Origin: Thomasclavelia spiroformis DSM 1552
Lineage (GTDB): Bacteria; Bacillota_I; Bacilli_A; Erysipelotrichales; Coprobacillaceae
Reading direction: 5' to 3'
Assembly (NCBI RefSeq): GCF_025149465.1
Contig: NZ_CP102275.1
Coordinates: 1,426,001 to 1,490,000 of the forward strand
Length of the DNA stretch: 64,000 nucleotides
Position 1 is the first letter of the stretch; the number at the start of each line of letters is the position of its first letter. Below, one piece after another: positions 40,758 to 60,582 of the stretch. Below the pieces are notes generated by a model. The model did not search any database, was not told the DNA's origin, and was given only the letters and a program-made list of their open reading frames with translations. The translations under genes and the position numbers were made by a program.

Positions 40758-40758
40758 T

Positions 40759-41835: not shown

Positions 41836-41874
41836 CTTAATAAAAATTCCTTTCGCTAGTTTTACATATTTTAT

Positions 41875-41907
41875 AAAAAAAACATATATTGTAGTAAAAA
41901 TATGTTT
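41875..41907 (-). terminator. Terminator inside the polysaccharide locus
   Basis: aaacatat (41880-41887) / atatgttt (41900-41907), followed on the minus strand by a T-run (41875-41882). It separates the glycosyltransferase part from the nucleotide-sugar part; an antiterminated polymerase would read through. Confidence 0.7.
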
Positions 41908-41960
41908 ATACCTATAAATTTGATTATATATAAATTTTACTATTATATTTTATGACCAGT

Positions 41961-42485: not shown

Positions 42486-42498
42486 ATTAATTCCCCTT

Positions 42499-43715: not shown

Positions 43716-43742
43716 AAATCATTCTCCTTTCGCCATTCTAGA

Positions 43743-44900
43743 TTACCATATCTTTTTTGGTATAATTACTTTGGCTTTACTTAACGGTCCATCCTTTATA
43801 TTATAATTTTTATCTGCCGTTACACATTGACATAGTTTAAAAAATCTTAATGCCGATTCTTTAGCAGACCATTTTGTTTTAATTGTCAAATATGCATTTT
43901 TGCCAATCTCATGACTTTTTTCTATGTCATTATATATGCATTTAAACTTATTTATTAAATCATCCATATTTCCATCACAATATTCAAAACCATTAATTCC
44001 ATCTTCAATCAAGTATTTTGTAGAACCTATTGCATCACTACTGAATACAACACATCCACTATTCATTGCCTCATTTAATACAGCACCCCATCCCTCATTA
44101 TAATCAGATGTGAATAAAAAAAACTTACTTTTTTCCATATACATCCTTACTTCCTCAGTAGTCATAGCACCAAGTAAATGAATTTCTGCTTTCAAATTAA
44201 AATGTTTAATCATTTCAGAGAGTTGAATTTTTAATGGCCCATCACCAATAATATTTAAATTAAATTCAACTCCATTATCTTTTAATTTTTTTGATAATTC
44301 TATTGCAAACTCTGGATGTTTCCACTCAATTAAACGACCTGTCCATAAAATAGATATTTTATCTTTGTTTAAAATTAAGTTATCAATACTTTCATACTGT
44401 TTTGTCTCAGGAAAATAACCCCATTTATACATATTAGCAAATTTTCCCATAGTAATTTTATAGTCAAAAGGTGCATACGCACTAGCACTTAATAAATAAG
44501 CATTTTTACTTCTTAGTAATATATTTAATTTAATATATCGTATAAAATTTAATGATAAAATACTTTTTTTTATCCCTGATTTTAAAAGTCTTTCTGAATA
44601 TCTAAAATATATTTTTCCACTCTTCTTTCGAATTTTTATATATTCATAACTGGCTGATCCCCAAATCATTATATCGCAATCTAATGCTAATTTCTTTGCT
44701 TTAATATAGTCTTCTTGTGATTCGTATGGACGCAACTCATAATTTTTTTTATTTTCACTTTTCCATCCTAATTTAATTCTTTCATCATTAAATGGTTCAC
44801 ATGAAATAAAATAATATTCACAATCTCTAATCTTATTCATTTCTTCTGAAAATGGTAATTGATGATGTGATAAATAATTTGAAAAAAATGCAATTATCAT
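43743..44900 (-). CDS. Family 4 glycosyltransferase
   Basis: 385 residues of GT-B fold: the N-domain opens MIIAFFSNYLSHHQLPFSEEMNKI. The C-domain has ILWTGRLIEWKHPEFAIELSKKL, IIGDGPLKIQLSEMI and FLFTSDYNEGWGAVLNEAMNSGCVVFSSDAIGSTKYLI with the EX7E-type donor site. Sugar specificity is unknown. Its ATG overlaps the stop of the upstream GT2 gene by 4 bases (ATGA), so the two are coupled. Confidence 0.9.
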   Translation of the reverse strand: MIIAFFSNYLSHHQLPFSEEMNKIRDCEYYFISCEPFNDERIKLGWKSENKKNYELRPYESQEDYIKAKKLALDCDIMIWGSASYEYIKIRKKSGKIYFRYSERLLKSGIKKSILSLNFIRYIKLNILLRSKNAYLLSASAYAPFDYKITMGKFANMYKWGYFPETKQYESIDNLILNKDKISILWTGRLIEWKHPEFAIELSKKLKDNGVEFNLNIIGDGPLKIQLSEMIKHFNLKAEIHLLGAMTTEEVRMYMEKSKFFLFTSDYNEGWGAVLNEAMNSGCVVFSSDAIGSTKYLIEDGINGFEYCDGNMDDLINKFKCIYNDIEKSHEIGKNAYLTIKTKWSAKESALRFFKLCQCVTADKNYNIKDGPLSKAKVIIPKKIW

Positions 44901-45856
44901 TCTGATTTTCCTTTCAATCTACAATACATGTTAGGTGAGTAGCCTAATAGATAACCAAGAAGTATGTACTTAAATCCTATTTCTTTATTTTGTTGTTGAA
45001 ATTTTAATTCTTGTTTTAAAAATGATGATAAATCTTTCATATCATCTAAATATAAATCATTTGTATGTTTTTTTAATGTTAACGCATTATTATAAAAATC
45101 CATTACATTTTTTATTAGCTTATTACAACAATCTTCATAACCGAACTCCTTTGCAAATAAATATCTATTTTTAAATGCAATTGCTCGATCAAAAGCTCCT
45201 TTCACCTTTTTTTTGGAATCATTTGATGTACTGTCATTCCTATCGATATAATAAAAATATAGTTTTTGATCAATTACAGCTATTTTTTTTGCTCTATTTG
45301 TAATTTTATGCAATATCATCATATCTTGAGCATACCTTCCTGCTGGACTAACTATGTCATTCCAAAGTGATTTTTTGTACATATATTGCCAAAGCTGACT
45401 TCCAACCTTATCCAATAAAACTTCTCTCGTAAATTTTTTAGAATTTACTACCGAAACATCGTAAGTATCCTTATCCTTCGTAAGTTTTCCTCTAAAATAA
45501 TCACATTTAGAAATATCTGAATCGGTACTTATAATTGCATTCAATAAGCTATTAAGATATTGTGGTAAAATATAGTCATCACTATCAACAAATGAAACAT
45601 AATCACCTTTGGCCATTAAGAGAGCATTATTTCTCGCAACAGATAATCCTGCATTTTGCTGATGTATAACAATAAATCTTTTATCTTGTTTAGCAATCTC
45701 ATCACAAATTTCACCACTTCCATCTGTCGAACCATCATTAATAAGAATACATTCAAAATTTTCATATGTCTGTTGGATAATACTATCTAAGCATCTTCTT
45801 AAATGCTTTTGAACATTATAAACAGGTACTATAATACTAATTAGAGGGGTATTCAT
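44897..45856 (-). CDS. Family 2 glycosyltransferase
   Basis: 319 residues: ISIIVPVYNVQKHLRRCLDSIIQQTYENFECILINDGSTDGSGEICDEI and GLSVARNNALLMAKGDYVSFVDSDDYILPQYL give the GT-A fold with the DSD metal motif. The C-terminal half holds the acceptor region, where AGRYAQDMMILHKI replaces the usual G-ED motif. It is cytosolic and transfers a sugar from a nucleotide donor to the lipid-linked repeat unit. The IS110 element lies immediately upstream, so its transcription from the distal operon promoter may be affected. Confidence 0.9.
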   Translation of the reverse strand: MNTPLISIIVPVYNVQKHLRRCLDSIIQQTYENFECILINDGSTDGSGEICDEIAKQDKRFIVIHQQNAGLSVARNNALLMAKGDYVSFVDSDDYILPQYLNSLLNAIISTDSDISKCDYFRGKLTKDKDTYDVSVVNSKKFTREVLLDKVGSQLWQYMYKKSLWNDIVSPAGRYAQDMMILHKITNRAKKIAVIDQKLYFYYIDRNDSTSNDSKKKVKGAFDRAIAFKNRYLFAKEFGYEDCCNKLIKNVMDFYNNALTLKKHTNDLYLDDMKDLSSFLKQELKFQQQNKEIGFKYILLGYLLGYSPNMYCRLKGKSE

Positions 45857-45869
45857 ATCTTATTTTTCC

Positions 45870-46164
45870 TGGTATATTGAAGTTACTCATACAAAGAGTA
45901 ATAAATCTAATATACCAATTCTCCTTTCTACCTGAATTATTTGGTATCACTTCAGGTTGTGTTAAAATGTGTAATTGTGAATGTGGATTTGTATTTTTTT
46001 CCTTATTGCTTTGACTTTTCAGAAAGGATCTTACCACTTCTTTGTATCGCATTTATTATTAGTTGTATGAGTCTTTTGAATTATGAACACACCAGGTTTT
46101 TGATACCTTTGAAGTGGATCTGATTTCACAATCACAAATCATCTTAAGAAAGGAATTGATAATT
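45870..46164 (+). ncRNA. Structured non-coding region of IS110, candidate bridge RNA
   Basis: Nearly 300 bases of the IS110 left end without a credible gene but with strong pairings. TGGTATATT (45870-45878) pairs with AATATACCA (45909-45917) and encloses TTACTC/GAGTAA (45883-45888, 45896-45901). A separate hairpin CCTGAA (45931-45936)/TTCAGG (45951-45956) shows a 14-base loop containing GGTATC, and its complement GATACC recurs at 46102-46107. Bridge RNAs of IS110-group elements are encoded at this place. Assignment of target and donor loops is not possible without insertion-site comparison. Confidence 0.45.
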
Positions 46165-47325
46165 ATGAAACTTGTTGGAATTGACATTGCCAAATATAAA
46201 CATGCCGCTTTTATCATGGATGCTTCTACTGGCGAATCTTTATGTGATCCTTTTTTATTCAAAAACAATAAAGATGGATTTCAAAAATTTTATGACGAAC
46301 TTAATAAATACACACAAGATGAACTTTTAATCGGTATGGAAGATACCGGACACTATAACTTTGCCATTGAAAGCTGCTTATTGGCTAAAGGTTATAAAGT
46401 TGCTTTAATCAATCCTATTACCACTAAGAACCTTAGAAAAGCTTCTTTAAAAACTGTTAAAAGCGATAAAGAAGATGCTATTTTAATTACCAAAGCTCTC
46501 CTAGATAAAGATTACTATCGCATCATCTCTATTCAAGATGAGAAATTAAAGGAGGCCAAAGAATTAACGCGCTATCGTACACAATTGACAATTGAAATGA
46601 ATCGTAAGAAGAATATTCTTCAAAGACATATTGATATTGTTTTTCCTGAATTTAATACATTATTTAATAATGAATACACCATTACATATTTAAATATTTT
46701 AAGAAAATATGGTGATGCCTATACCATTGCACATACAGATATTCGTTCTTTAAGAAAATGTTTTAAATACTGTAATATCTTCTCAGCAGAAGACTTAAAA
46801 GAATTAGCTTCTAATTCTGTGGGTATTCATGATGTTTCTATTTCTTTTATCATTCAATCGGTTATTTCCAGTATTGATTTAATAAACTCTCAAATTGAAG
46901 AATTAGATAAAAAAATAGAAGAACTCGCCATCACACAAGATTCTTCTATCACATCAATACCAGGAATATCAATTATTACTGGTACTTCTATTTTAGCTGA
47001 ACTTGGTGATATAAGTAAATACTCAAATGCAGGAAAATTAATTAAATTTGCAGGTGTGAATCCATATATCAGTGAATCTGGCGAATTTTCAGCTGATAAA
47101 ACAGCCATAACCAAGAAAGGTTCTAAATATCTAAGGGCAACACTTTATCGAGTCATCATACCTGTAATACGCCACAACCCTGCATTTAATAACTACTATC
47201 ATTTAAAACGAAGTCAAGGTAAAGGACATCTTTGCGCTTTAGGTCATTGTGTAAGAAAACTTTTAAGAATCATTTATCATCTTGAAATAAATCATATTAC
47301 TTTTGATATAAATTCTCTTAAATAA
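46165..47325 (+). CDS. IS110-family DEDD transposase/recombinase
   Basis: 386 residues from the ATG at 46165 (AAGAAAGGA 8-10 nt upstream). The N-terminal RuvC-like DEDD domain shows MKLVGIDIAK (Asp7), GMEDTGHY and LKTVKSDKEDA. The C-terminal transposase_20 domain shows ITSIPGISIITGTSILAELGDISKYSNAGKLIKFAGVNPYISESGEFSADKTAITKKGSKYLRATLY, where the SESG segment should hold the nucleophilic serine. It looks intact. Such enzymes are guided by a bridge RNA to a short target. Confidence 0.95.
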   Translation: MKLVGIDIAKYKHAAFIMDASTGESLCDPFLFKNNKDGFQKFYDELNKYTQDELLIGMEDTGHYNFAIESCLLAKGYKVALINPITTKNLRKASLKTVKSDKEDAILITKALLDKDYYRIISIQDEKLKEAKELTRYRTQLTIEMNRKKNILQRHIDIVFPEFNTLFNNEYTITYLNILRKYGDAYTIAHTDIRSLRKCFKYCNIFSAEDLKELASNSVGIHDVSISFIIQSVISSIDLINSQIEELDKKIEELAITQDSSITSIPGISIITGTSILAELGDISKYSNAGKLIKFAGVNPYISESGEFSADKTAITKKGSKYLRATLYRVIIPVIRHNPAFNNYYHLKRSQGKGHLCALGHCVRKLLRIIYHLEINHITFDINSLK

Positions 47326-47453
47326 TCAAAATATTTATCGAACTAAATTCTATTAAAATAAGCTATTTTTACGATAGTTCTTTTTAACATTTTTTCATTC
47401 ACAATTTCAAAGATCAAATACTATATTTTCAAGTAATTTATTTTCATACTATT

Positions 47454-49004
47454 TCATAATCTACTACTTGACTTTAATATAGTTGTCTTTCTTATGAGAT
47501 TTAAATAACGATTAATAATTGCTCTAAATTCCTTACGATGAAAAAATACTAGTATATTAAATATGATGTTCACACTCCCACAAATAACACCTTTTAAAAT
47601 AAGTCCCATCCATCCGTTAAAAGATATAGAATTAACAACTAAAAAGCATATTAAAGCATTAATTACACAAATAAATAAAAAAAATAGATAACGGTAAAAA
47701 TATGATATATGTTTCCTATGCAATATTTTTACATATGTATAATAACTATCAGAAACTTCTGTAAGAAATAATTTAGACATCCATGTAGCAACAAAAACTC
47801 CCTCTATTCCCCATAGTTTTCCTAATAAAATAGATAAAAATATGTTACAAATTGCTGAAAGAACATATATATACTGTACCTCTTTAAAATATCCTTCAGT
47901 TGTTCTAAAAACATATATACTGTAATTTATACCACTTACATAAATTGAAAAAACAAGCGAAATTAAAGTAAATGAGGATATCAAATATAAATCACCTAAC
48001 CAAAGAATAATAAATGGTTTCATTAAAACTAATAAACATACACAAACAAAACTATATAAAAAATAAACTGATAAAAATAATTCATCAAAAATATTTCTTT
48101 TTTCTTGAACAGAACTATCAACATTAAAGTTTCCAACACTAGATGAAATACTTGTTAATGCATTATAAAATATGTTATTTACTGAATTAATAACCATTAA
48201 ATAATTTGAAATGATACCTACCTGTAAAAGACCAAACATTTTTGAAATAATTATATTATCTGTACCACTCGAGACAATACCACAAACTTTTGATATTGCT
48301 AACGCCTTAATATTAACAAAAATTTCTTTTTTTTCATCTTTTGACAACTGATTTTTAGGTGCTAATAAAACATACGGATATTGTTTGTTAACAATTACAG
48401 TCAAAATAACATTAATCATTAGTGTACATAGGATTTGACATAATAGATATAAAATAAAAGAATGTGTAAAATAAAGAATGATTGATTGAACTATCATAAG
48501 ACTAATGTGTGCAAAATTAGCCACTAAATTATTAATATATGATTTTTGATCAGCCAATAGCATAGATTTTTTATATGTACAAAAATATGATACAACAGTG
48601 TTCAATAAATATAATACAAATAAAAGATGTATGTCTTCTGGGATACTTGGTTTTTCTTTTATTAAATAATTAATAAATGGAGTAACTAATAATCCAGCAA
48701 CAAGCATTACAGTAGCAATTATATGATATGCTTTTTTATATAATAATAATAAGGCATTAATTTTATCATATTTTTTTTTCTTTATTGGCTCATATAAACT
48801 ATATACCATTACATTACCAATACCCAATTCAGTAAATGATAATATTGTTAATACATTTGAAAATAGTCCATTTATCCCTAAGTATTCTGCAGAAAGAAAT
48901 CGAATAAAAATACTTCTAGAAACAAAACTAAGAATTAATGTACAACTTTGACAAAACATAGTTAATACAATGTTTTTTATTGAACGTGAAAAATTTGATT
49001 GCAT
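47454..49004 (-). CDS. Polysaccharide repeat-unit flippase (Wzx-like)
   Basis: 516 residues with about 12-14 membrane helices, MOP-superfamily pattern: SRSIKNIVLTMFCQSCTLILSFVSRSIFIRFLSAEYLGINGLFSNVLTILSFTELGIGNVMVYSLYEPI is the conserved start of this clostridial Wzx group. FGLLQVGIISNYLMVINSV and the paired C-terminal helices follow. It moves the lipid-linked repeat unit across the cytoplasmic membrane. It begins on the last base of the wzy stop (TAATG). Confidence 0.92.
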   Translation of the reverse strand: MQSNFSRSIKNIVLTMFCQSCTLILSFVSRSIFIRFLSAEYLGINGLFSNVLTILSFTELGIGNVMVYSLYEPIKKKKYDKINALLLLYKKAYHIIATVMLVAGLLVTPFINYLIKEKPSIPEDIHLLFVLYLLNTVVSYFCTYKKSMLLADQKSYINNLVANFAHISLMIVQSIILYFTHSFILYLLCQILCTLMINVILTVIVNKQYPYVLLAPKNQLSKDEKKEIFVNIKALAISKVCGIVSSGTDNIIISKMFGLLQVGIISNYLMVINSVNNIFYNALTSISSSVGNFNVDSSVQEKRNIFDELFLSVYFLYSFVCVCLLVLMKPFIILWLGDLYLISSFTLISLVFSIYVSGINYSIYVFRTTEGYFKEVQYIYVLSAICNIFLSILLGKLWGIEGVFVATWMSKLFLTEVSDSYYTYVKILHRKHISYFYRYLFFLFICVINALICFLVVNSISFNGWMGLILKGVICGSVNIIFNILVFFHRKEFRAIINRYLNLIRKTTILKSSSRL

Positions 49005-50221
49005 TATACATCATCCTTTCTGATGTTTATATAATAGCTACCTTTTCTTTTTGCATAGATATTTAACATTCCTGCAAAAATACAGAAATCAACAAAATAA
49101 TATGGCATTCCTTTAAAAACTGGTTCTACGAAGAAATTTATTAAAAAAGCACAACAAATACTTAATATCAAATATTTATTTTCTAATAATATACTACTAT
49201 TTTTTACTATTTTTAATACGTCATGAATAGCTACAACAGTAAATGTTACCAATAATATAAAAGGAAACCATCCAACTTGCTTTAAAACATCAAACCATAA
49301 GTTATGGGTTGTATCTAATGACCCATCTCCAAAAGGATATTTATATGCCTCTTCAATTGTTTTAAATAAACTTTCCTTTCGATATTCATCACCGGATTGA
49401 TATCCTGTTTCATCAGAAATTCTTTCATATAATGGTGTATTTTCCCATCTTTCTTTGATTTGAAAAGCATTATTAGAATAAAGTAATACAGCTATCACTA
49501 CAAATATTGATATTTTAAAAATACGTTTTATTTTCAATTTACTATCTTGACTTCTCATTATTACAGTACAAAAAATATTTACCACAAAAACTATTATCAT
49601 TATTATTAATGCTGTCCTAGATGCTGTAACTAAACTATTATAAATAGCAAAAATAACTGCAATAAATAATATAATTTTCATTTTAAAATTATTTTTCCTA
49701 TTCACAACAAACAACATGTAAAATAATAACGATATACATAACGACATTAAAGCACCTTGTCCAGTTGCAGCAATTACGCTATTTGTCCAAATATCCATAC
49801 CATTCCTATTATAATCGACGAATCCTCCTGAAATTATCATATTCATAAAAACATGCGTAAATCTTCCAAAGACTATAATAAAAATATAATAACGTACCAT
49901 ATTATCTAAATTTTCAAATGAACATTTATTTATTATCGTAGAACCTACTAAATATCCCATCGTAGGTGCTAGTAAATAAGGTAAAACATAATATGTTAAA
50001 AATTCTCTATGATAATAAACTGACATAATATAAAATAATATTGAAAATAATATCAATAATATACTTTTTTTCGGAATACAAATGCATTTATATAATAAAA
50101 AAACAGATAAAAATAAAACTAAAACTAATCTGCTTTCCATGTTAATAAAATTCATTGAAAATAAGAATAAAATCAATCCAATAAAAATATCATTAATTTT
50201 TAATTTTTTTAAAGTTATCAT
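49004..50221 (-). CDS. O-antigen/capsule polymerase-like protein (Wzy-like)
   Basis: 405 residues from the ATG at 50221 (AAAGGAG 6 nt upstream; a longer frame would extend over the preceding gene). There are ten or more membrane helices. One loop before the last helices carries the short motif DTTHNLWFDVLKQVGW typical of O-antigen ligase/polymerase proteins (HNxxL). Sequence is poorly conserved in this family, so the call rests on topology, the HNLW motif and position next to the flippase. It would link repeat units outside the membrane. Confidence 0.82.
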   Translation of the reverse strand: MITLKKLKINDIFIGLILFLFSMNFINMESRLVLVLFLSVFLLYKCICIPKKSILLILFSILFYIMSVYYHREFLTYYVLPYLLAPTMGYLVGSTIINKCSFENLDNMVRYYIFIIVFGRFTHVFMNMIISGGFVDYNRNGMDIWTNSVIAATGQGALMSLCISLLFYMLFVVNRKNNFKMKIILFIAVIFAIYNSLVTASRTALIIMIIVFVVNIFCTVIMRSQDSKLKIKRIFKISIFVVIAVLLYSNNAFQIKERWENTPLYERISDETGYQSGDEYRKESLFKTIEEAYKYPFGDGSLDTTHNLWFDVLKQVGWFPFILLVTFTVVAIHDVLKIVKNSSILLENKYLILSICCAFLINFFVEPVFKGMPYYFVDFCIFAGMLNIYAKRKGSYYINIRKDDV

Positions 50222-51386
50222 TTGCTTCTCCTTTTCCAATTTCAAATATAAAATTTTTAATTGGGGTTATAAATAATCGATAATCGAAATAATTAATTGC
50301 TGTTTTTCTCGCCTCTTGACACATATATACTTTTTCATTGTTACTTAGTGCTAGTGCTCTTTTTATTGCAATACAAATACTTCTCTCATCACATGAATCA
50401 ACAACAATACTATTTGTTTTATCTATTAAATAATCATTTAAATCAGATGTTAAATTAGAAATAACTGGTGTTCCAGTTGCTAAACTTTCAACAAATTTTG
50501 TTGGAAATCCAGCTTTTGCATAACGTTGCTTTTCTGATCTTATCAAAATTGTAAAATTTGCTTTTTCTAATTCACATAAAACATCTGCCCGAGAGATTCG
50601 CCCTTTTATTTCAATAACCTCAGATAATTTATCAATAATATTATTTTCAACACTACATATATTTACTAATTGTTCTCTAGTTACTCCTATAATAATAAAC
50701 TTTAATTTTCTTTGCTCTTCTTTTTTCAATAATAAAATTCCATTTAAAATTTCAAATAAATAGTCTTTTTTTCCTGGAGATCCTGCATACATGATAACTA
50801 GTTTATCATTTGAAATATTTTTTTTAGAAATAATATTTTGAACATCTAAGATAACCGGTATCTTAAGCACTTTTATATTCCTATCTAAAAAATGTTTCTT
50901 TAAATACTCACTAATTGCAATAACATAATATTGTTTATCTATCCATTTTGTATTATATGAATCATTTCTTTTATAACTTATTGATTTATCACCTCTTTTA
51001 AATTGCTCTGGTGAAAACCACTCAACTGCATCATATATTAATTTAATATTAATTTTTTTGCAGTATTTTTTCAAAATTTCCAAACTAATTTTATCAATTT
51101 GTGTATGTAAACATAAATCATAATGTTTCTTTTTTATAAATTTTTTTAACCTTAGTGGAAACATAAAATAGTCTACAATTTTTTGAAATTTAAATTTTTT
51201 TTCGGATCTATATTATATATATGAAATATTTTCAAGTTGCTTTATATTAAATCTTGTTGATTCTCCCATTGATATTACAGTTACTTTATAACCAATTTCT
51301 ATAAGTATTTTAGCATACATATGTATCCTTACTGCTCCTGCATCTTGGTTAGGACACTTATCAAGAGTTACTATTAGTGCTTCCAT
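50193..51386 (-). pseudogene. Family 4 glycosyltransferase with premature stop
   Basis: The start at 51386 (GGAG upstream) encodes MEALIVTLDKCPNQDAGAVRIHMYAKILIEIGYKVTVISMGES, a normal GT4 N-terminus, and stops with TAA at 51213-51215. The same frame is open again and continues from the ATG at 51164 with the remaining 323 residues (MYAGSPGKKDYLFEILNGILLLKK; GFPTKFVESLATGTPVISNLTSDLNDYL). Between them an adjacent frame reads NIDPKKNLNFKKL, which suggests two compensating small indels near TATATATAATA and an A6 run. The C-terminal part could be made alone but lacks the acceptor domain. Confidence 0.8.
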
Positions 51387-51401
51387 CCTTATTCTCCTAT
51401 T

Positions 51402-51950
51402 TTAATTTTTAAAGTTTTTTAACTTTCTATGCTTTTTCAATTCATCATCTGTAAATCTATTTTTAATAATTTTAGCAGGCACGCCACCAACTATTGTATA
51501 CGCTGGGACATTCTTTGTTACAACAGAACCTGCAGCCACTACTGAACCTTCACCAATTGTAACTCCCTTTAAAATTGTTGAATTTGCCCCTATCCAAACA
51601 TCATCTTCAATAACTACAGGTAGATCATTTTCAGGAACTTTTTCATCGTCAGAAACATTTACCATATATTTACCTATTGTATCAATCTTATGATCCCCAG
51701 TTATAATACTAACTTGTGGCCCAATCATAACATAATTTCCAATTATTAATTTAGCTCTTGTACATAAAATTAGTGCTCGCCCACCAATCGATGAATTTTT
51801 ACCAATTTTAATATTTTTAATACCACTAATTGTACATTGTTTCCCAATAGTAACACCTTTTTCGCAACTACCACATGCAGACTTTAAAATTGGCATAAAA
51901 AAAAAGCGATAGAAAAGCCAACTTAATTTTTTTAATATTAGGTATACCAT
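51402..51950 (-). CDS. Hexapeptide-repeat O-acetyltransferase
   Basis: 182 residues: a membrane-proximal helix ([24 protein letters not shown]), then left-handed beta-helix repeats ([56 protein letters not shown] with catalytic His). It ends [48 protein letters not shown]. This WcaF/VioB-like group O-acetylates sugars of exported polysaccharides. It lies one base downstream of the preceding glycosyltransferase gene. Confidence 0.9.
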
Positions 51951-51951
51951 C

Positions 51952-53016
51952 TTATCTCATTTCAATAATAGTATTATATATTACTATTAAATCTCCTAAA
52001 ACTTTAGATTTTACATATTTTTTTGAAATATTGTAATTAAATAAAGAAAAATTTTTTCGTATTTCTTTATCTTTTATAGATATCATTGCATTATATAAAG
52101 CAAATTTATCTCTAGGATCTATTATAATTCCTCCTTTACCAATTTTATTTTCCAATAATTCTTTATTATTACCTACATCAGTAGCAATTATAGGTAAACC
52201 TCTTGACATTGCCTCTAAAAGAGCAAGTGAAAAACCCTCACTATAAGACGGGAATACAAAAACATCCGCCTGATCTAAATAATAAATTATTTCTTCATGT
52301 TTTTTATTACCTAAAAATTTAACATTATTAGGTATTTGAACCACATCAATTCCGTAATGTATTGATCCCAATAAAATAAACTCTATATCTTTAAATCTCT
52401 CTGCAGTCCAAAGAATTTCTTGTACCCCTTTTTCAATACTTACATGCCCTACATAAACAACTTTATTTATTTTTTCATTTACTTTTTTTGGAATATCTAT
52501 TAAAAAATCATCATCAATGAAATTTGGAAAAATTTTGCAATTTATTATTCCCATTTCTTTAATATAATTTAAAGAATCCATATTTAAAGTCATCACAAGT
52601 TTTACTTTTTTACATATTCTTTTTAAAAAAAACTTTTGAATCGTATTATTGTTAATTTGATCACAAATATTACAATGACATTGAAAAATTATTGGTATTT
52701 TTTTCTTGGATAATATTTTTATAATTAAATAATCTTTAAATATCCCTAATTTTGAACAAGATGAATTAACATGTGCAATTGAGATCTCTTTTTTTTTAAT
52801 AGTTTTTAATGTCAGTCTAATAATTTTTACTAATCTGTATATTTCTGTAAAAGGATTTCTTTTTGAACCATAAAATTTACCTCTTTTTCCAATTATAGCA
52901 GTATTAATAGTTACTACATTTATATTATTATTTCGACAATATTCAAGAAATTTTAAACTCCATGTTGCTATTCCTCCTGTTGGTGGAGGCAACGGAGATA
53001 CTAATAATACTCGCAT
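51952..53016 (-). CDS. Family 4 glycosyltransferase
   Basis: 354 residues from the ATG at 53016, which gives the typical [27 protein letters not shown] (GAGGAGA upstream). The C-domain shows [23 protein letters not shown] and [50 protein letters not shown] with the EX7E motif. It is a cytosolic GT-B enzyme; the sugar is unknown. It belongs to the main capsule operon. Confidence 0.92.
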
Positions 53017-53030
53017 ATATATTTCTCCTC

Positions 53031-54302
53031 TCATCTATCCTTTTTTATCGATATAGCTTCATTTAAAACTTGTATATATTTTTTAGTACACATATTTGAA
53101 TCTAAGTTTCTTTTAATATATTCTCGTCCATTATTACCCATTTTACTACATAATGCTCTATCATCATATAGTTTTAAAATTGCGTGTTTTATTTCCATAA
53201 CATTTCCAGATTCACATGCAATTCCCGACTTAGAATCATTAATAATGTTATTAAGTTCTGAATCTTTATCAAAATTAGTTATCACTGCTGTAGCAGTTGC
53301 CATAATGCTCCATGTTTTGCTCGGTAAAGCTGTTTTACCAGCACCTTTTTTACAAGATACTATTGAAACATTACCTAAACTATATACCTCTGACACTCTA
53401 TTTTGAGGTTGAATAGGTAATATAGTAATATTATTTATTTTTTCTGAATTTATAAGATTTTCATAATATTTTTTTCCATCTCCTGAACCAAATAATATAA
53501 ATTTAATATCTTTATATTCTTGCATAATTTTAGCCACATTTATAATTGTATCTATATCTTGCGCTTTACCCATATTTCCTGCATATGTAACAAAAAAATT
53601 ATTTTTATCTAAATTATATTCTTCAAAAAGTTTATTACTATTCCTTGAAATAGGAATTACTTCATCAGCATTAATCCAATTATAAATCACTTTAATTTTT
53701 TCAGCCAATACACCTTTATCGACCAAATTATGTTTAAATTCATCACAAATCACTATTATTTTATCAGCATGTTTATATGTATATTTTTCAATTAATTTAC
53801 CAATTTTGAAAAATAAAGATTTTTCGCTTGATATTCCTGTACTAACTAACGAATCCGGAAAAATATCTTGTACAATATACACTACAGGTAAGCATAATTT
53901 TTTACCCAATAATGCTGCTACAATTCCTTGAGTAGGCGGTGTACTCCCAGCTAAAATAACATCACAATTTGACAAGTTCCTTGCTGTTCTATATTGTTTT
54001 ATATTTAATAGTAGATAACGTATTATTCTTTTTATGACCACACTATTTTCAGGTAAAAGCTTAAATCTATGCACGCGAATCTTTCCATCATATTTTTCTT
54101 CATACCGTATATCTTTATAGTTATCTACTATATCTTGTTCAAGTCCTCTTGATGGGGTAGGAGTAACACAATCAATTTGAAAATCATTATCAACTAATGT
54201 TTTTTCTAAATCATTTACTAAATGTGTACTAGCAGTTATTTCTGGTGTATAGTATGCGTATAATCTTATTATATTCTTTTTTTCTATTCTCTTAGTTGTC
54301 AT
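53031..54302 (-). CDS. Family 4 glycosyltransferase, WbuB-like (candidate FucNAc transferase)
   Basis: 423 residues: IIRLYAYYTPEITASTHLVNDLEKTL, then VILAGSTPPTQGIVAALLGKKLCLPVVYIVQDIFPDSLVSTG, a segment typical of WbuB/CapM-type enzymes that use L-FucNAc or related 6-deoxy amino sugars. The donor domain reads FVTYAGNMGKAQDIDTIINVAKIM, ILPIQPQNRVSEVYSLGNVSIVSCKKGAGKTALPSKTWSIMATA. The locus carries a CapE-CapF-CapG set, so UDP-L-FucNAc is a plausible donor. It overlaps the preceding phosphoglycosyl transferase gene by 11 bases. Confidence 0.85.
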   Translation of the reverse strand: MTTKRIEKKNIIRLYAYYTPEITASTHLVNDLEKTLVDNDFQIDCVTPTPSRGLEQDIVDNYKDIRYEEKYDGKIRVHRFKLLPENSVVIKRIIRYLLLNIKQYRTARNLSNCDVILAGSTPPTQGIVAALLGKKLCLPVVYIVQDIFPDSLVSTGISSEKSLFFKIGKLIEKYTYKHADKIIVICDEFKHNLVDKGVLAEKIKVIYNWINADEVIPISRNSNKLFEEYNLDKNNFFVTYAGNMGKAQDIDTIINVAKIMQEYKDIKFILFGSGDGKKYYENLINSEKINNITILPIQPQNRVSEVYSLGNVSIVSCKKGAGKTALPSKTWSIMATATAVITNFDKDSELNNIINDSKSGIACESGNVMEIKHAILKLYDDRALCSKMGNNGREYIKRNLDSNMCTKKYIQVLNEAISIKKDR

Positions 54303-54885
54303 TTGTGTACAATCCTTTTCTCAATAATACCGTGCTGAATGTTTTAAATAATATTTTTATATCCAACCATAACGAAACATTATTTGCATACCATACATCT
54401 TTCAATCTTTTTTCTCTAGACGATAAAGAATTACGAAAATAGGCTTGTGAGTATCCTGTTATTCCTGGACGAACTTTTAATTTATCCAATTCATCACTAG
54501 AATATCCACTAAGAGAGTTGCTAAGACTAGCTCGAGGACCTATTATACTCATATCACCTAATAATACATTTATTATTTGTGGAAGTTCATCTATACTTGT
54601 TTCTCGAATAAAATGTCCAACTTTAGTAACTCTTGGATCATTTTTTGAATTATAAGTACTTCCATCAGCATTTCTAATGTCTTCAGAATTTACATGCATT
54701 GATCTAAATTTATACATTTTGAAAACCTTGCCATTTTTGCCTAATCTTTCTCCACTATATATGATAGGTCCCCTGTCTTCAATAAAAATAGCGACTGAAA
54801 CAATAATAAAAATTATTGATAAAGGTATAAGAAATAAGATACTTATTAATATATCAAATAATCGTTTTAAAAACTTTTTATACAT
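54292..54885 (-). CDS. Initiating phosphoglycosyl transferase (PglC/WcaJ-type small)
   Basis: 197 residues, monotopic: an N-terminal re-entrant helix ([26 protein letters not shown]), then [28 protein letters not shown] with the catalytic Asp-Glu dyad region, [33 protein letters not shown] and [21 protein letters not shown]. It lacks the WbaP N-terminal membrane part, as in PglC. It transfers sugar-1-phosphate to undecaprenyl phosphate to start each repeat unit. The neighbouring aminotransferase and NeuD gene suggest a modified amino sugar substrate. Confidence 0.93.
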
Positions 54886-54896
54886 TTAGTTCCTCC

Positions 54897-55556
54897 TTAT
54901 ATAAAAAAATTGCTATCCTTATCTAATTTAATACTTCTATTTGGAACATAAACACCATTTTTTTCTGAATCCTTATGTATATACGCTGATGCCCCAACTA
55001 AGGTTTTATCATTTAAAGTGATTCTATTTTTAATAGTTGAATTCATACCTAAAAAACAATTATTTTTTATTTTTACATATCCCCCAACAGTTGTTCCTGA
55101 AGCAATAAAATTATTATTCCCCACTTCAATTTCATGAGTTAGATTTACACCAGAAAAAATAATATTATTATTTCCAATATGTACGTTATATCCAATATGT
55201 GATGAAGGAAGAATAATATTACCTACACCAATATTTTTTTTACTTGTATATACAACTGCTTTTTTACTAATAAACGATCCAATCTTAAATTGCATCTTTT
55301 TACTTTCTTCAAAAATTTTTTCACGAATCGAATTCATTTTGCTATATCCAACTGTATTAATAAGATAAATATCACTCATATCAAAAATTTCTGGTAACTT
55401 TTCAAAGGCAATAACTGGTTTGCCATTATAAAAATTACTTTTAAGATATTTTTCATTTACTGTATATGCAATTATTTCATATTGATTTTCTGCCTCAATG
55501 TAATTTGCTACAAGATCTGAAAAACACGATAATCCAAATATTATACACTTATTCAT
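54897..55556 (-). CDS. NeuD/PglD-family acetyltransferase
   Basis: 219 residues from the ATG at 55556 (GGAGG 6 nt upstream); the longer frame to 55616 overlaps the previous gene. The N-terminal Rossmann-like domain (KCIIFGLSCFSDLVANYIE) lacks the usual GAGGHG glycines. The beta-helix domain (VGNIILPSSHIGYNVHIGNNNIIFSGVNLTHEIEVGNNNFIASGTTVGGYVKIKNNCFLGMNSTIKNRI) has the catalytic His in NLTHE. It probably acylates an amino or hydroxyl group of a nucleotide sugar made with the adjacent aminotransferase. Confidence 0.85.
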   Translation of the reverse strand: MNKCIIFGLSCFSDLVANYIEAENQYEIIAYTVNEKYLKSNFYNGKPVIAFEKLPEIFDMSDIYLINTVGYSKMNSIREKIFEESKKMQFKIGSFISKKAVVYTSKKNIGVGNIILPSSHIGYNVHIGNNNIIFSGVNLTHEIEVGNNNFIASGTTVGGYVKIKNNCFLGMNSTIKNRITLNDKTLVGASAYIHKDSEKNGVYVPNRSIKLDKDSNFFI

Positions 55557-55587
55557 ATGCATCCTCCATTTAATAGATATAAACTGA

Positions 55588-56829
55588 CTAACTCCATATA
55601 ATACCCTCAATCCCATTATCAGTTCGTACTTTTATATCTATCATACTTTTTATTAAACACATTCTTTTCTCAAGCTCATCATAACTATTTCCAGTTAATG
55701 TAAATAGTTTTCTTCCATTTTTATCTGTAATTGGTGGAGTTTTGATACCTACTTCTATTCCTGTAAGTAAACAATTGTGTACAAAAGGAAGTTTTAGAAC
55801 TTCTTCAATACCTTCTGTACTAATAATCTCTCCCTCTGGCATATAGAAAAAAAGTTCCCCAAAATACTGTCCCACAAAATCAGAACTTGGTTCTGGCATA
55901 TACAAATTCCCAACTGCAGCATCAATCAAAAAATCTTCCGTACTAATACCTGCGCAGAATTTTACAGCATCCGATGATATAAATACTCCTCCACCTCTTG
56001 CTGCTATTTCAACTAAATAACATTTTTCGCCATCATATAAATATTCGGCATGAGTACGCGAATTATTTAATCCAAATTTTTTTATAATTTGATTATTAAA
56101 AGTACTTACTTTTTCTTTTACATCTTTTGGACATTTACTTGGAAATATGGTCTTATGACTAGAAAATACATCTTTTTTTGCAAATGGAGCATATTCTCCA
56201 ATCGTAAGAACTTTTATTTCTCCATCCACAATCAAACTATCAACTAAAAGCTCAAAACCATTAATAAACTTTTCTATAATAACTTTTCCATTTCGAGAAT
56301 AATCCATAGCTTCTTTAAAATACATGATCATATCTTGTCTACAAGTTATTTTGTGTACTCCTTTACTTGCCTGAGAATCTGCTGGTTTAATTATTGCAGG
56401 TGCTCCTAAAGTATCATAAAATTCTATTGCATCATATAAATTATGTACTAATGCATATGGAATAGGATTTAAATCTAATTCTTTACATTTTTTTCGCATA
56501 AGAACTTTATCAGTAAATAAGCAACTAATATTATAACCAATAGACGATAAACCCATTTTTTCAGTTACATATGCCACTGTTCTAACTGCTAAATCTGTTT
56601 GGTCTGTAACCGCGCCATCTATCTTCAATTCACGTGCTTTTTCAAGAATTAAATCTTGATCTCTAACATCAGCAATTACTGAATAATCAGCGTATTCAAA
56701 ACCAGGTTCAGTTGGATTTGGAGATACAACAACCAACTCATACCCCCTCTCTTTAATACGCTTTATCAAAGGCATCTGTAAAGCCGCTGCTCCAACTACC
56801 ATTAATTTATATTTTTTATTTACACTCAT
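55588..56829 (-). CDS. ATP-grasp carboxylate-amine ligase
   Basis: 413 residues of the carbamoyl-phosphate-synthase-like ATP-grasp fold. It has a pre-ATP-grasp domain (MVVGAAALQMPLIKRIKERGYELVVVSPNP), ATP-binding lysine in APAIIKPADSQASKGVHKI, and GKVIIEKFINGFELLVDSLI. The metal site is RTHAEYLYDGEKCYLVEIAARGGGVFIS. Such proteins join a carboxylate, often an amino acid, to an amine. Between a DegT aminotransferase and a NeuD-type gene, the amine may be a 4-amino sugar; this is inference. The start overlaps the aminotransferase stop by 14 bases. Confidence 0.88.
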   Translation of the reverse strand: MSVNKKYKLMVVGAAALQMPLIKRIKERGYELVVVSPNPTEPGFEYADYSVIADVRDQDLILEKARELKIDGAVTDQTDLAVRTVAYVTEKMGLSSIGYNISCLFTDKVLMRKKCKELDLNPIPYALVHNLYDAIEFYDTLGAPAIIKPADSQASKGVHKITCRQDMIMYFKEAMDYSRNGKVIIEKFINGFELLVDSLIVDGEIKVLTIGEYAPFAKKDVFSSHKTIFPSKCPKDVKEKVSTFNNQIIKKFGLNNSRTHAEYLYDGEKCYLVEIAARGGGVFISSDAVKFCAGISTEDFLIDAAVGNLYMPEPSSDFVGQYFGELFFYMPEGEIISTEGIEEVLKLPFVHNCLLTGIEVGIKTPPITDKNGRKLFTLTGNSYDELEKRMCLIKSMIDIKVRTDNGIEGIIWS

Positions 56830-58039
56830 CTAAAACCTCTTTAAAGATTTTAATTATATACTCAACATCTTCATTACTTAATTTAGTATGAAGCGGTAAT
56901 GTCACTTCATTAATAAATTGATTATATGCATTAGGATAATCCTTAATATCAAATCCCAATTTCTTATATGCTGTTAACATTGGTAGTGGCTTATAATGAA
57001 CATTACATGCTATGCCTTTTTCAGCCATCTTTGCAATTATTTCATTTCTTTGTTTATCATTAATCCCATTAATTCTTACAAAATATAAATGGCCTGATGA
57101 TTTATGGTCAATATCAAAATGATTTAAAAGTTGTATATCCAAATCTTTTAATCCCTCATTATACATCTCAATAATTTCTTTCCTTCTAGCTAATAAGTGC
57201 TCATATCTGTTTAATTGACCCAATCCTATACCTGCTGTAATATCTGTCATATTACACTTATACGCTGGTAAAACAATATCATACTCCCATGCTCCTAATT
57301 TTGTTTTAGCTAAAGCATCTTTTGATTGTCCATGCAATGATAATAACTGATATTGTTTATAGATATACTCATTATCAATACCTGGCACATTCTTCCATAC
57401 AACTGCTCCACCTTCAGCTGTTGTAAGATTTTTAACTGCATGAAAACTAAATGATGTAAAATCTGCTACTTCTCCACACATCCTACCGTTTTGCTTAGCT
57501 CCAAATGCATGTGCTGCATCTGACATTACAATAACACGATTAAAAGCTTTTTGAATTTCATTGCTTGGTTTAAATAATTCTTTCTTACTTTCAACAACTT
57601 CAAAAATCTTATCATAATCACACATAATACCAGCTATATCTACAGGAATAATAACCTTTGTTTTTTCAGTGATTGCATTTGCCAACTTTTCATAATCCAT
57701 TTCATAAGAATCTTTAGCAACATCCACAATTATTGGAGTAGCCCCAACATGACAGATAACGCTACATGAAGCAGTATATGTATATGCTGATGTAATAACC
57801 TCATCACCAGGTCCTACTCCTAATAATCTTAACGTCATATCCATACATGCAGTTGCACTATTTAAACATACAGCTTGTTCACCATGACAATACTGTGCTA
57901 TTCTTTTTTCAAATTCTTTTGTTTTTGGACCAGTTGTAATCCAACCTGACTTTAAAGAATCGATTACTTCATTAATTTCTTCTTCGCCAATATCAGGTGG
58001 TGAAAACGAAATGACTTTTTTTTCTAACACTTGTATCAT
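56816..58039 (-). CDS. DegT/DnrJ/EryC1-family sugar aminotransferase
   Basis: A 407-residue PLP enzyme: SGWITTGPKTKEFEKRIAQY, NSATACMDMTLRLLGVGPGDEVITSAYTYTASCSVICHVGATPIIVDV, DAAHAFGAKQNGRMCG and the Schiff-base Lys203 in SFHAVKNLTTAEGGAVV, closing with GIACNVHYKPLPMLTAYK. It converts a keto nucleotide sugar, for example a UDP-4-keto-6-deoxy sugar, into an amino sugar. A 4,6-dehydratase (CapE) is encoded in the same locus. It is the first complete gene after the antitermination leader. Confidence 0.93.
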   Translation of the reverse strand: MIQVLEKKVISFSPPDIGEEEINEVIDSLKSGWITTGPKTKEFEKRIAQYCHGEQAVCLNSATACMDMTLRLLGVGPGDEVITSAYTYTASCSVICHVGATPIIVDVAKDSYEMDYEKLANAITEKTKVIIPVDIAGIMCDYDKIFEVVESKKELFKPSNEIQKAFNRVIVMSDAAHAFGAKQNGRMCGEVADFTSFSFHAVKNLTTAEGGAVVWKNVPGIDNEYIYKQYQLLSLHGQSKDALAKTKLGAWEYDIVLPAYKCNMTDITAGIGLGQLNRYEHLLARRKEIIEMYNEGLKDLDIQLLNHFDIDHKSSGHLYFVRINGINDKQRNEIIAKMAEKGIACNVHYKPLPMLTAYKKLGFDIKDYPNAYNQFINEVTLPLHTKLSNEDVEYIIKIFKEVLDECK

Positions 58040-58149: not shown

Positions 58150-58263
58150 TTATTTGTTTGATATTTTATAAAAACTGATTTCATCATAACAGTTTAAATC
58201 TCTAATAATATCTAAGCAGCATCTTCCATGACCGCCTGCTCCTACAATTAACAATTTTCTAAT
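58150..58263 (-). pseudogene. Remnant of a NeuD/PglD-type gene in the capsule leader
   Basis: The minus frame reads RKLLIVGAGGHGRCCLDIIRDLNCYDEIS and stops after ~37 codons. GAGGHGR is the N-terminal nucleotide-binding loop of NeuD/PglD proteins, which the intact gene at 54897 has lost. A strong GGAGGGG lies upstream, but no normal start codon is in frame. It is probably a left-over of an earlier gene set. Confidence 0.6.
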
Positions 58264-58282
58264 AATATCCCCTCCCTAATAC

Positions 58283-58330
58283 AAAAAAAGAACATAGTTC
58301 CCCCTACCCCAAGGTAAGTAAACTATGTTC
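58283..58330 (-). terminator. Strong terminator between loaP genes and capsule genes
   Basis: Perfect 10-bp stem gaacatagtt (58290-58299) / aactatgttc (58321-58330), an extra inner stem TACC/GGTA, and seven T residues on the minus strand (58283-58289). It lies 38 bases after the last loaP-like gene and would cut off the operon unless antiterminated. Confidence 0.92.
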
Positions 58331-58339
58331 AAAATAAAT

Positions 58340-58367
58340 CTAGAGGCGGATATACCATTCTCTCTAG
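58340..58367 (-). promoter_or_regulatory. Hairpin upstream of the capsule terminator, candidate LoaP recognition element
   Basis: ctagag/ctctag stem (58340-58345 with 58362-58367) with a 16-base loop containing GGTATATCC. It lies between the stop codon of the loaP-like gene and the terminator. LoaP proteins act through an RNA hairpin located before terminators; identity of this hairpin with that element is inference. Confidence 0.5.
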
Positions 58368-58865
58368 CTAATTTTTGCATGTTATATATAATCCTACTTT
58401 TATCCGTCTATCCATAAACGATAAATCAAGATATGCATATTGATTATGTCGATCAACTTTTACAATATTATTTTCAAATGACTTCAATGGTCCTTCAATA
58501 ATCACTGCTTTTCCATCTTGTAAATATGCTTGGGACATTCTTACAACATGATAAGCATCTAATAATAACTCAAACATCCTAATTTCCTCTTTTCTCAAAG
58601 CCAATGTTTCTTTATTAACCAATTGACCTATCACACCATTTTTCTCTTCAGCCATTTTATATAACAACGAATTAAACTCTAATTGATTCAATTCAGTTTT
58701 AACAAAAACATATCCCGTAAACATTGGTTTAATAAGATATTCTTTTGTTTTACGATGATAATATTCATACTGTGGTACAAATGCTTCAATACATTTTCTT
58801 TTATTAAGATTAAAAACAACTTGATTTTTTTTATAACTTAACGTATTTAAAACATACCAATTCAT
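58368..58865 (-). CDS. loaP: NusG-like processive antiterminator (LoaP/UpxY type), copy 1
   Basis: 165 residues: an NGN domain (MNWYVLNTLSYKKNQVVFNLNKRKCIEAFVPQYEYYHRKTKEYLIKPMFTGYVFVKTEL) and a C-terminal KOW domain (DGKAVIIEGPLKSFENNIVKVDRHNQYAYLDLSFMDRRIKVGLYI). The FVP..........PLFPGYVFV pattern marks specialised NusG paralogues. They travel with RNA polymerase and suppress termination in long polysaccharide or antibiotic operons. It overlaps copy 2 by 4 bases (ATGA) and is followed by a hairpin and a terminator, then the capsule genes. Confidence 0.9.
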   Translation of the reverse strand: MNWYVLNTLSYKKNQVVFNLNKRKCIEAFVPQYEYYHRKTKEYLIKPMFTGYVFVKTELNQLEFNSLLYKMAEEKNGVIGQLVNKETLALRKEEIRMFELLLDAYHVVRMSQAYLQDGKAVIIEGPLKSFENNIVKVDRHNQYAYLDLSFMDRRIKVGLYITCKN

Positions 58866-59377
58866 GATTTACTTATTACTTCCAAAGGAACCATGATTTT
58901 TTTATCAAAAAACTCTGTTTGTAAAGTTGCAACGCGATGATGACGATTAATCTTAACCACTAAATCATCTAACCCTAATAACGGTCCTGTATCAACAATC
59001 AATTTCTTGTCAACAATATTACCGATGGAACGTTTAATGATATGTCCTCCATTAAATAGTTTTTCCATTAAGTCTTGTTCTGTATCTTTTAATGCATAAA
59101 CACCCTCATACTCTAATAACTCTCCAAAACCTTCAATCGACTCAAAGAACTCTTTAAATTTTTTATTAAACGCTTCATTATCCATATCACTTTTAACAAA
59201 AACATAATCTGGATACAAATCCTTAATAACATAATCCTTTACACTTTTAACATTATGCCATTTTTCAATTTTAGGAATAAAAGCATCTACACCTTTTTGG
59301 CTATTAAAAAATTTAACAATTTTACTTCCTCGGTCTACTTTTGCATGAATAACATACCAATACATAACCAATTTCAT
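58862..59377 (-). CDS. loaP: NusG-like processive antiterminator (LoaP/UpxY type), copy 2
   Basis: About 170 residues: NGN (YWYVIHAKVDRGSKIVKFFNSQKGVDAFIPKIEKWHNVKSVKDYVIKDLYPDYVFVKSDM) and KOW (VDTGPLLGLDDLVVKINRHHRVATLQTEFFDKKIMVPLEV). It is clearly paralogous to copy 1 but only distantly similar. The ATG at 59377 directly abuts AAAGGA; a TTG at 59371 (6-nt spacer) or the ATG at 59365 (MYWYVIHAK, the usual family start) is likelier. It is the first gene downstream of the recombination site, so it would be the first gene read after promoter inversion. Confidence 0.9.
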   Translation of the reverse strand: MKLVMYWYVIHAKVDRGSKIVKFFNSQKGVDAFIPKIEKWHNVKSVKDYVIKDLYPDYVFVKSDMDNEAFNKKFKEFFESIEGFGELLEYEGVYALKDTEQDLMEKLFNGGHIIKRSIGNIVDKKLIVDTGPLLGLDDLVVKINRHHRVATLQTEFFDKKIMVPLEVISKS

Positions 59378-59390
59378 TCCTTTCGCTTTT

Positions 59391-59411
59391 CGCAGAACTA
59401 GCTATTCTGCG
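59391..59411 (+). repeat. Recombination site 1 of the predicted invertible segment
   Basis: CGCAGAA and TTCTGCG arms around the 7-base spacer CTAGCTA, the layout of a tyrosine-recombinase core site. Bases 59394-59411 recur as a perfect 18-bp inverted copy at 60502-60519. The stop codon of the recombinase gene (59402-59404) lies inside it. Confidence 0.85.
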
Positions 59412-60340
59412 AAAAAACTAGGCTTTTCTATCTTATTTATCTGTGTTTTTTTAAAATCGAGTGATGAATGAACATATAGATTTAATGTTGTAGATACTTT
59501 AGAATGTCCTAACATCTCTGATAATGATTTAATATCAATATTATTCATTACACAATTAGTTGCATATGTATGTCTTAAAGAATGAAAATTTGATTTAAAA
59601 TTATATAGTTTACAAATACGATGAAAACTATATTGAATACTTCTAGGATCAGAAATATTTTTACTATTAGTATAGATAAAATGTTCATCATCAATAGCAT
59701 GATGTTGATAATATTTTTTTACATATTCCATAACAAAAACAGGAATTGGAATAATTCTTTTAGATGTTGCTGTTTTTGGATCCATTAACATTAACTGTGT
59801 TTTTGTCATACTATTAGCTGGTGCTTTTAATCTTTCCACAGTTCTTTCAACTCTAATCAAATCATTTTCAAAATCAATATCTTTCCATTTTAAACCACTA
59901 AACTCCCCAATTCTTAATCCCCCATACAAAGATAATAAAATAGCTAAAGATATTGGTTCAAAATGATTAAAACAATATTTTCCTAATAACATTATTTGAT
60001 CAGATGTTAATACTTTGCAATCATTTTTCTTTTTAGCTAGTTTAATAAAATTAAAATTAGGACACTTAATTGCATATTTAGACTGTGCATATTCTAAAAT
60101 TGATTTCAATACATAACGTATTGTAGATAACGTACTTAATGAATACTTTTCTTCATTAATTTTTGTTTGAAAATAATTAATGATTATATCATCATTGATC
60201 TGTTGCAAACAATATTTACCAAAATATTGTATTAAGTGTACATTAACAACATTCTCATATTTTACATATGAAGAATACTTAACCGATAATTTTTTTAAAT
60301 ACATCCATTCCCTACTAACTACAATAAAATTTTTACTCAT
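59402..60340 (-). CDS. Tyrosine recombinase, predicted promoter invertase
   Basis: 312 residues: an N-terminal SAM-like core-binding domain (~10-95) and the integrase catalytic domain with GGLRIGE (Arg I), K near LMDPKTATSKRIIPIP, HSLRHTYATNC (HxxR) and GHSKVSTTLNLYVH (His, then the nucleophile Tyr). It lies entirely inside an inverted-repeat pair and its last codons (GCA GAA TAG) are part of the repeat, so inversion leaves the protein unchanged. GGGAGG precedes the ATG. No phage or conjugation genes are near, which argues for a dedicated switch enzyme like Mpi-type or Fim-type invertases. Confidence 0.92.
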   Translation of the reverse strand: MSKNFIVVSREWMYLKKLSVKYSSYVKYENVVNVHLIQYFGKYCLQQINDDIIINYFQTKINEEKYSLSTLSTIRYVLKSILEYAQSKYAIKCPNFNFIKLAKKKNDCKVLTSDQIMLLGKYCFNHFEPISLAILLSLYGGLRIGEFSGLKWKDIDFENDLIRVERTVERLKAPANSMTKTQLMLMDPKTATSKRIIPIPVFVMEYVKKYYQHHAIDDEHFIYTNSKNISDPRSIQYSFHRICKLYNFKSNFHSLRHTYATNCVMNNIDIKSLSEMLGHSKVSTTLNLYVHSSLDFKKTQINKIEKPSFFAE

Positions 60341-60472
60341 ATAATTGCCTCCCTTAAATATATAGTTGTATTTGAAAAAGGTAAATCGTTTATTTTAAAT
60401 ATTCGTGCTAAAAATTAGTAATAAAATGCAAATTATGTCTTTTTTTGAATTTTATCTAATATTATGTTTAAA

Positions 60473-60495
60473 TAAGTAGCTTTTTGTGCTATAAT
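60473..60495 (+). promoter_or_regulatory. Extended -10 promoter inside the invertible segment, facing right
   Basis: TGCTATAAT (60487-60495) is a perfect extended -10 element; the -35 region is weak (around 60466-60472). Expected start is in the repeat at about 60502. In this orientation it fires away from the capsule operon into the terminator at 60541-60582. After inversion it would read straight into the loaP-like genes. Confidence 0.75.
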
Positions 60496-60501
60496 TCAAA
60501 T

Positions 60502-60519
60502 CGCAGAATAGCTAGTTCT
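60502..60519 (-). repeat. Recombination site 2 of the predicted invertible segment
   Basis: cgcagaatagctagttct is the exact reverse complement of 59394-59411. The third arm of site 1 is not fully kept here (TTCTATG instead of TTCTGCG). Inverted, not direct, orientation predicts inversion of 59412-60501 (1090 bases). Confidence 0.85.
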
Positions 60520-60540
60520 ATGAAAAATTTATATAAAAGC

Positions 60541-60582
60541 AGTCATAAACAATAATTTTAATATATAGTTTATGACTTTTTT
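60541..60582 (+). terminator. Terminator just outside recombination site 2
   Basis: agtcataaac (60541-60550) / gtttatgact (60568-60577) plus T5. It would stop transcription from the promoter at 60490 in the present orientation. Confidence 0.85.

Follow-up and report, generated by a model that had tools for sequence, protein, structure and literature searches.

The window, an AT-rich stretch of 64,000 nucleotides from Thomasclavelia spiroformis DSM 1552 and part of a 2.53-Mb genome on one contig, very likely contains a capsule operon under a phase-variable promoter switch that is self-contained. On its minus strand the elements follow each other in a fixed order: a terminator (60541–60582), the right crossover site, a segment with a promoter and a tyrosine recombinase gene, the left crossover site, two antiterminator genes (loaP1 and loaP2), an RNA hairpin, a second terminator and the capsule operon. 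The anatomy of the switch and its conservation are read directly from the window and from related genomes, and one pair of relatives carries the segment in opposite orientations between collinear flanks.

Crossover sites and recombinase

A previous sequence-only reading had described the recombinase gene as bracketed by an 18-bp perfect inverted repeat. The repeat is real and perfect, but its length is 19 bp (AGAACTAGCTATTCTGCGA, 59394–59412, with its complement at 60501–60519). This perfect repeat is nested in a 26-bp inverted repeat of 92% identity (59387–59412 and 60501–60526), and the arms are 1088 bp apart. In first-order Markov sequence, an inverted pair of 19-mers is expected about 0.01 times per 7 kb. 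No further copy of the 19-bp repeat occurs in the 2.53-Mb genome when up to 3 mismatches are allowed, and the reversed-pattern control likewise gives 0.

The crossover site of a tyrosine recombinase consists of two inverted half-sites with a spacer between them. The left site (59387–59412, without strand) is a near-perfect dyad that was also compared with relatives; as read, it is TTTTCGCAGAA-CTAGCTA-TTCTGCGAAAA, that is, inverted half-sites flanking a 7-bp spacer. It can be divided into the half-site TCGCAGAA (59390–59397), the 7-bp core CTAGCTA (59398–59404) and the half-site TTCTGCGA (59405–59412). The right site (60501–60526, without strand), delimited by repeat search and comparison with relatives, comprises TCGCAGAA (60501–60508), the core TAGCTAG (60509–60515) and a degenerate outer half-site, TTCTATGA (60516–60523).

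The gene within this repeat pair (59402–60340, minus strand) encodes a tyrosine recombinase of 312 aa (Phage_integrase, E=7e-26), as had been recognized from the sequence. Its reading frame is intact and the catalytic residues R, K, HxxR, H and Y are all present. The stop codon TAG (complement of 59402–59404) falls in the left arm, within its 7-bp spacer. As a result, the encoded protein is unchanged by inversion, which bears out the earlier proposal that the stop is built into the repeat.

Promoter and facing terminator

The invertible promoter (60467–60495, plus strand) is composed of a -35-like TTTAAA, a gap of 17 bp and the extended -10 TGCTATAAT at 60487–60495, which ends 5 bp before the right site. 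The inverted repeats thus surround a segment with an outward promoter, as in invertons. At present, the promoter faces away from loaP and toward a hairpin-plus-T-run terminator (60541–60582, plus strand) that would catch its transcripts, in agreement with the earlier description. This terminator scores 25, compared with a mean of 15.6 and a maximum of 22 for shuffled sequences; a strict search of the window returned none because it excluded loops longer than 8, and a wider search recovered it. In the window alone the promoter does not rise above chance (25 promoter-like sites against 29 expected), and it becomes convincing through the comparison with relatives rather than through the window scan.

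Since the promoter faces the terminator, the present orientation is probably OFF. The same judgment had been made before, and no promoter toward the recombinase exceeds the background. In this orientation nothing obvious stops transcripts between the recombinase gene and loaP1, and read-through from one into the other is possible.

The loaP pair, the leader and the capsule operon

Judged by model scores, the genes adjoining the switch are NusG paralogues nearest to LoaP. The proteins of loaP1 (58862–59377, minus strand) and loaP2 (58368–58865, minus strand) reach 97.8 and 102 bits, respectively, under the NCBIfam LoaP cut-off of 125 bits (NF033641), and are LoaP-like only; with the UpxY model NF033644, which has a cut-off of 100, they score 36 and 48 bits. 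The start of loaP1 is more likely the second ATG, at 59365, because of its spacing from AAAGGA.

Directly 3′ of loaP2 lies a leader RNA hairpin (58340–58367, minus strand), a putative LoaP loading site that shows compensatory changes. Its covariation across loci is 0.379 versus 0.188 after shuffling (0 of 500 shuffles as high), and the slid controls do not exceed 0.244. With regard to the UNCG-type tetraloop of LoaP leaders, most of the hairpins contain UCCG, ACCG or UCUG, but in the predicted fold these bases do not sit in a closed tetraloop. The hairpin precedes an intrinsic terminator (58283–58330, minus strand) that separates loaP1 and loaP2 from the capsule genes, the arrangement known from LoaP systems, and a similar leader is found in most relatives; this terminator is the putative target of antitermination. 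In Bacillus velezensis, the passage of an intrinsic terminator by LoaP depends on a hairpin in the leader (PMC12691694), and for this reason there are good grounds to expect that the hairpin here serves LoaP-like antitermination as well.

The 18-kb operon downstream (39591–58039, minus strand) begins with a DegT aminotransferase gene (56816–58039), the first gene past loaP. It also contains genes for an ATP-grasp protein, a sugar transferase, glycosyltransferases, a predicted polymerase and flippase, an epimerase and a UDP-glucose dehydrogenase; the assignments rest on Pfam matches, except that the polymerase and the flippase, without a Pfam match, were recognized by inspection. Since DegT, the sugar transferase, glycosyltransferases and UDP-glucose dehydrogenase follow loaP, the operon is assigned to capsule or exopolysaccharide synthesis, as it had been in the sequence-only reading. 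On the opposite strand within the operon, an ORF at 46114–47325 resembles, by inspection, an IS110-type transposase, so that the operon may be interrupted. A glycosyltransferase (42499–43715) seems to be split into two overlapping frames of 297 and 157 aa, which suggests a frameshift. Ahead of DegT, positions 58170–58270 hold an apparently truncated remnant resembling the start of an acyltransferase gene (LLIVGAGGHGRC...); an acyltransferase gene comes after the leader at several related loci.

Conservation among relatives

Homologues of the recombinase occur in 23 of the 43 genomes of the family (E<=1e-35) and in 21 of 316 genomes of the order, where they come from two families (E<=1e-55). 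A sample of the class, 395 genomes queried with a relative's recombinase, yields 4 matches at E<=1e-60, all inside the same order. Among named genomes, a single relative came up, an Erysipelotrichaceae MAG. In both families the design of the switch recurs as terminator, segment, loaP1, loaP2, hairpin, terminator and capsule genes, with the arms at the recombinase stop and the promoter beside the arm. The genes downstream of the switch in relatives are likewise capsule genes.

The repeat is conserved together with the recombinase, as the earlier reading required, in that its structure is kept and its core is private to the locus. In the 12 loci aligned in detail, the core is the same in both arms at 11; at the twelfth (L096) it is not scorable over all 7 bases. 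There are 11 distinct cores among the 12 loci, with a mean of 3.9 mismatches in 7 positions between loci. Shared half-sites around a locus-specific core that is identical in both arms are what would be expected of crossover sites.

The position of the promoter is conserved as well. The extended -10 sits 4–5 bp before the half-site in 12/12 loci (chance about 0.4% each), and in 15 of 16 segments no other outward promoter scores higher than the one adjoining the arm. At L056 another site outscores the locus's own extended -10, which is in place, and at L119–L121 a weaker -10 (TGGTATAAA) occupies the same position. Several of the loci counted come from draft assemblies, and those that are closely related are not fully independent of each other. 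Most loci in the OFF orientation have a clear terminator just outside the arm toward which the promoter points; it is absent at L027 and L097 and weak at L035. At L094, which is ON-oriented, a hairpin-T element stands on the non-loaP flank instead, as predicted.

Inversion in relatives and the state of this strain

The inverted arrangement in related genomes had been set as a test beforehand, and it is found at four loci, L056, L057, L094 and L121. The clearest example is L121 compared with L119; the two genomes belong to the same genus, in the second family of the order, and their operon is a capsule operon too (L123). The recombinase–promoter segment of 1.14 kb is exactly inverted between them, both flanks are collinear and the breakpoints lie inside the arms, with identities of 95.5% in the left flank, 96.2% in the inverted segment and 93.5% in the right flank. 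Natural inversion is thus seen, by genome comparison, in close homologues and not within this species. L057 is flipped relative to L038, as judged from the loaP flank; the subtype here is more distant and has a repeat of its own. At L094 and L056 the recombinase gene is divergent from loaP and the promoter is aimed at loaP. In one draft assembly, the L056 recombinase has a nonsense codon just past the RI motif, early in the catalytic domain, so that the locus may be locked ON and is possibly a natural phase-locked capsule locus.

Such locking raises the question of whether the switch in this strain is a frozen relic, that is, an ancestral inverton that once worked and is now locked OFF. The strain's sequence shows OFF only, and the outer half-site of the right site is degenerate. 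However, the recombinase has an intact reading frame with every catalytic residue in place, the 19-bp repeat contains no mismatch, and L003 and L017 show a comparable asymmetry of the outer half-site. A relic is thus considered unlikely.

The segment may also invert with the opposite polarity. The parallel orientation would then be ON, with loaP and the capsule genes in an operon behind the recombinase, and inversion would disconnect them. In most parallel core loci the recombinase gene and loaP1 are indeed co-directional, with a gap of 28–78 nt and no clear terminator between them. Promoter scoring disfavors this polarity, since recombinase-ward scores overall stay at the shuffled background (mean z -0.38, against 2.14 for outward promoters) and the outward promoter has a constant position next to the arm. 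Furthermore, promoter, crossover site, Shine-Dalgarno sequence and loaP1 ATG can be read directly in this order at the ON-oriented L121 and L094, where L119 has the recombinase end in that place. Reversed polarity is accordingly given little credence.

Proposed mechanism

That the segment inverts in this strain, and that inversion alters transcription, is inferred; the activities of the recombinase and the promoter, the antitermination and the capsule phenotype are predictions. At both ends of the segment, the recombinase encoded within it would bind the half-sites (TCGCAGAA and its complement); strand exchange over the identical 7-bp core would then invert the 1.1-kb segment. In the OFF state, the strong outward promoter would fire into the terminator, and transcripts reading through from the recombinase gene would reach the loaP pair only weakly, if at all. 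After inversion, the promoter would lie about 45 bp upstream of loaP1, with transcription starting inside the crossover site, and the terminator at 60541–60582 would end the recombinase transcript. In the ON state, RNA polymerase would cross loaP1 and loaP2, and the LoaP-like proteins would load, with the conserved leader hairpin as the probable site, and take the polymerase past the leader terminator into the capsule genes.

Other loaP loci in the same genome

A second, paralogous switch (L003; G000:C1:1696374) is located 211 kb away at another capsule locus, and its recombinase is 55% identical. The layout is the same: terminator, inverted repeat, outward promoter, recombinase, loaP, loaP, hairpin, terminator and capsule genes. 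Its extended -10, TGATAAAAT, is separated from the half-site by 5 bp. This assembly shows an OFF-like orientation for the two switches alike. At L003 the recombinase frame (L003:6360–7313) continues through the crossover site to a stop in the outer half-site, so that inversion would alter or swap only the last few C-terminal residues.

The two loci have common half-sites, and the recombinase could in principle join sites of different capsule loci, leading to large inversions or locus swapping. In Eggerthella lenta, megabase inversions take place between 16-bp repeats of identical sequence that lie close to capsule loci and loaP (PMC13174815). However, the cores of the two loci differ at 6 of 7 positions, a mismatch that should block strand exchange between them, and the inversions in relatives are local, of 1.1 kb. 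Cross-locus recombination is disfavored by this mismatch and is regarded as highly improbable.

The remaining LoaP-model matches in the genome are the housekeeping nusG (L115) and a third loaP-linked capsule locus (L116:5989–10417, at about 866 kb of G000:C1). The latter has a single loaP2-type gene, a hairpin and a terminator, and despite these no invertible switch was found at it. Between its loaP and capsule genes lies a reverse-transcriptase ORF that resembles, by inspection, a group II intron maturase.

Comparison with known systems

The Salmonella Hin switch spans about 1 kb, carries the gene for its recombinase and has an outward promoter close to one of its ends. The locus described here shares this layout, including the recombinase gene inside the invertible segment. 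Unlike the serine recombinase Hin (PMC11868660), its enzyme is a tyrosine recombinase, and its target is an antiterminator–capsule operon, not flagellin and a repressor.

In Bacteroides fragilis and B. thetaiotaomicron, invertible promoters drive NusG-paralogue antiterminators (upxY/upxZ) that head several capsule operons (PMC12632263). The earlier reading had seen the same logic here, and an invertible promoter does immediately precede a NusG-paralogue gene at the head of a capsule operon. One global invertase serves the seven capsule promoters of B. fragilis (PMC12632263), whereas here the tyrosine recombinase lies inside the segment and each locus has a private core; the antiterminators, moreover, are nearer to LoaP than to UpxY. 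By the tests made, the switch works like the Bacteroides capsule promoters and Hin, yet is a member of neither.

The recombinase RecV of Clostridioides difficile is encoded away from its own target sites. The likeness to its switches is that site-specific inversion by a recombinase gives phase variation in a Gram-positive gut bacterium (PMC7446863); its switches are described for flagella, c-di-GMP enzymes and other targets rather than for a LoaP–capsule operon. The dfn and mln operons of B. velezensis likewise combine a NusG paralogue, a leader hairpin and an intrinsic terminator before a long biosynthetic operon (PMC12691694); here, in contrast, two tandem LoaP-like proteins score below the curated cut-off and an invertible promoter is in control. 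In E. lenta, too, capsule loci associated with loaP are linked to site-specific inversion between inverted repeats (PMC13174815), but its inversions are of megabase size, with identical repeats and no adjacent recombinase, while the inversion here is local (1.1 kb), with private cores and an internal recombinase.

Phase-variable capsules controlled by an invertible promoter and a NusG-paralogue antiterminator have been presented as a trait of Bacteroides. For a defined gut community, a survey reports a median of zero invertons in the Bacillus-like Firmicutes group (PMC11892184), and no earlier description of such a switch was found in the open-licence papers searched. The same logic built from different parts in Firmicutes and Bacteroides suggests convergent evolution. 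Capsule bet-hedging is predicted for those members of the order that live in the gut, and it would affect their sensitivity to phages and their contact with the immune system. The compact, self-contained cassette with its locus-private cores could also serve as an orthogonal genetic switch.

More tentatively, and with rather less than even confidence, these loci may form a family of self-contained capsule switches, found here only in one Firmicutes order, that combine a private 7-bp core per locus with shared half-sites, flip independently and have a switching rate linked to the capsule state. If so, private cores on shared half-sites would allow several capsule loci of one genome to flip independently, even with cross-acting recombinases and without chromosome-scale rearrangement. 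The orientation would also set recombinase read-through into loaP, tying the switching rate to the capsule state.

Related recombinases outside loaP loci

Two recombinases, L092 and L044, stand alone, without loaP or a repeat, so the association with loaP is not absolute and can be lost. The idea that the repeat–recombinase unit is a mobile element only incidentally beside loaP could draw on these, but it is rejected as very improbable because the same gene order, with the arms at the recombinase stop and the promoter beside the arm, is found again in two families and L121 and L119 have collinear flanks. The solitary recombinase of L092 (4203–5162, genome G036) is 59% identical and lies among unrelated genes, with no clear repeat pair. 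For the distant recombinases L117 and L118, neither loaP nor flanking repeats were found. One genome, G030, alone has 11 recombinase homologues. At L046, L049, L052, L099 and L100, related recombinases lie between good inverted repeats with no loaP nearby, and the module may control other genes there.
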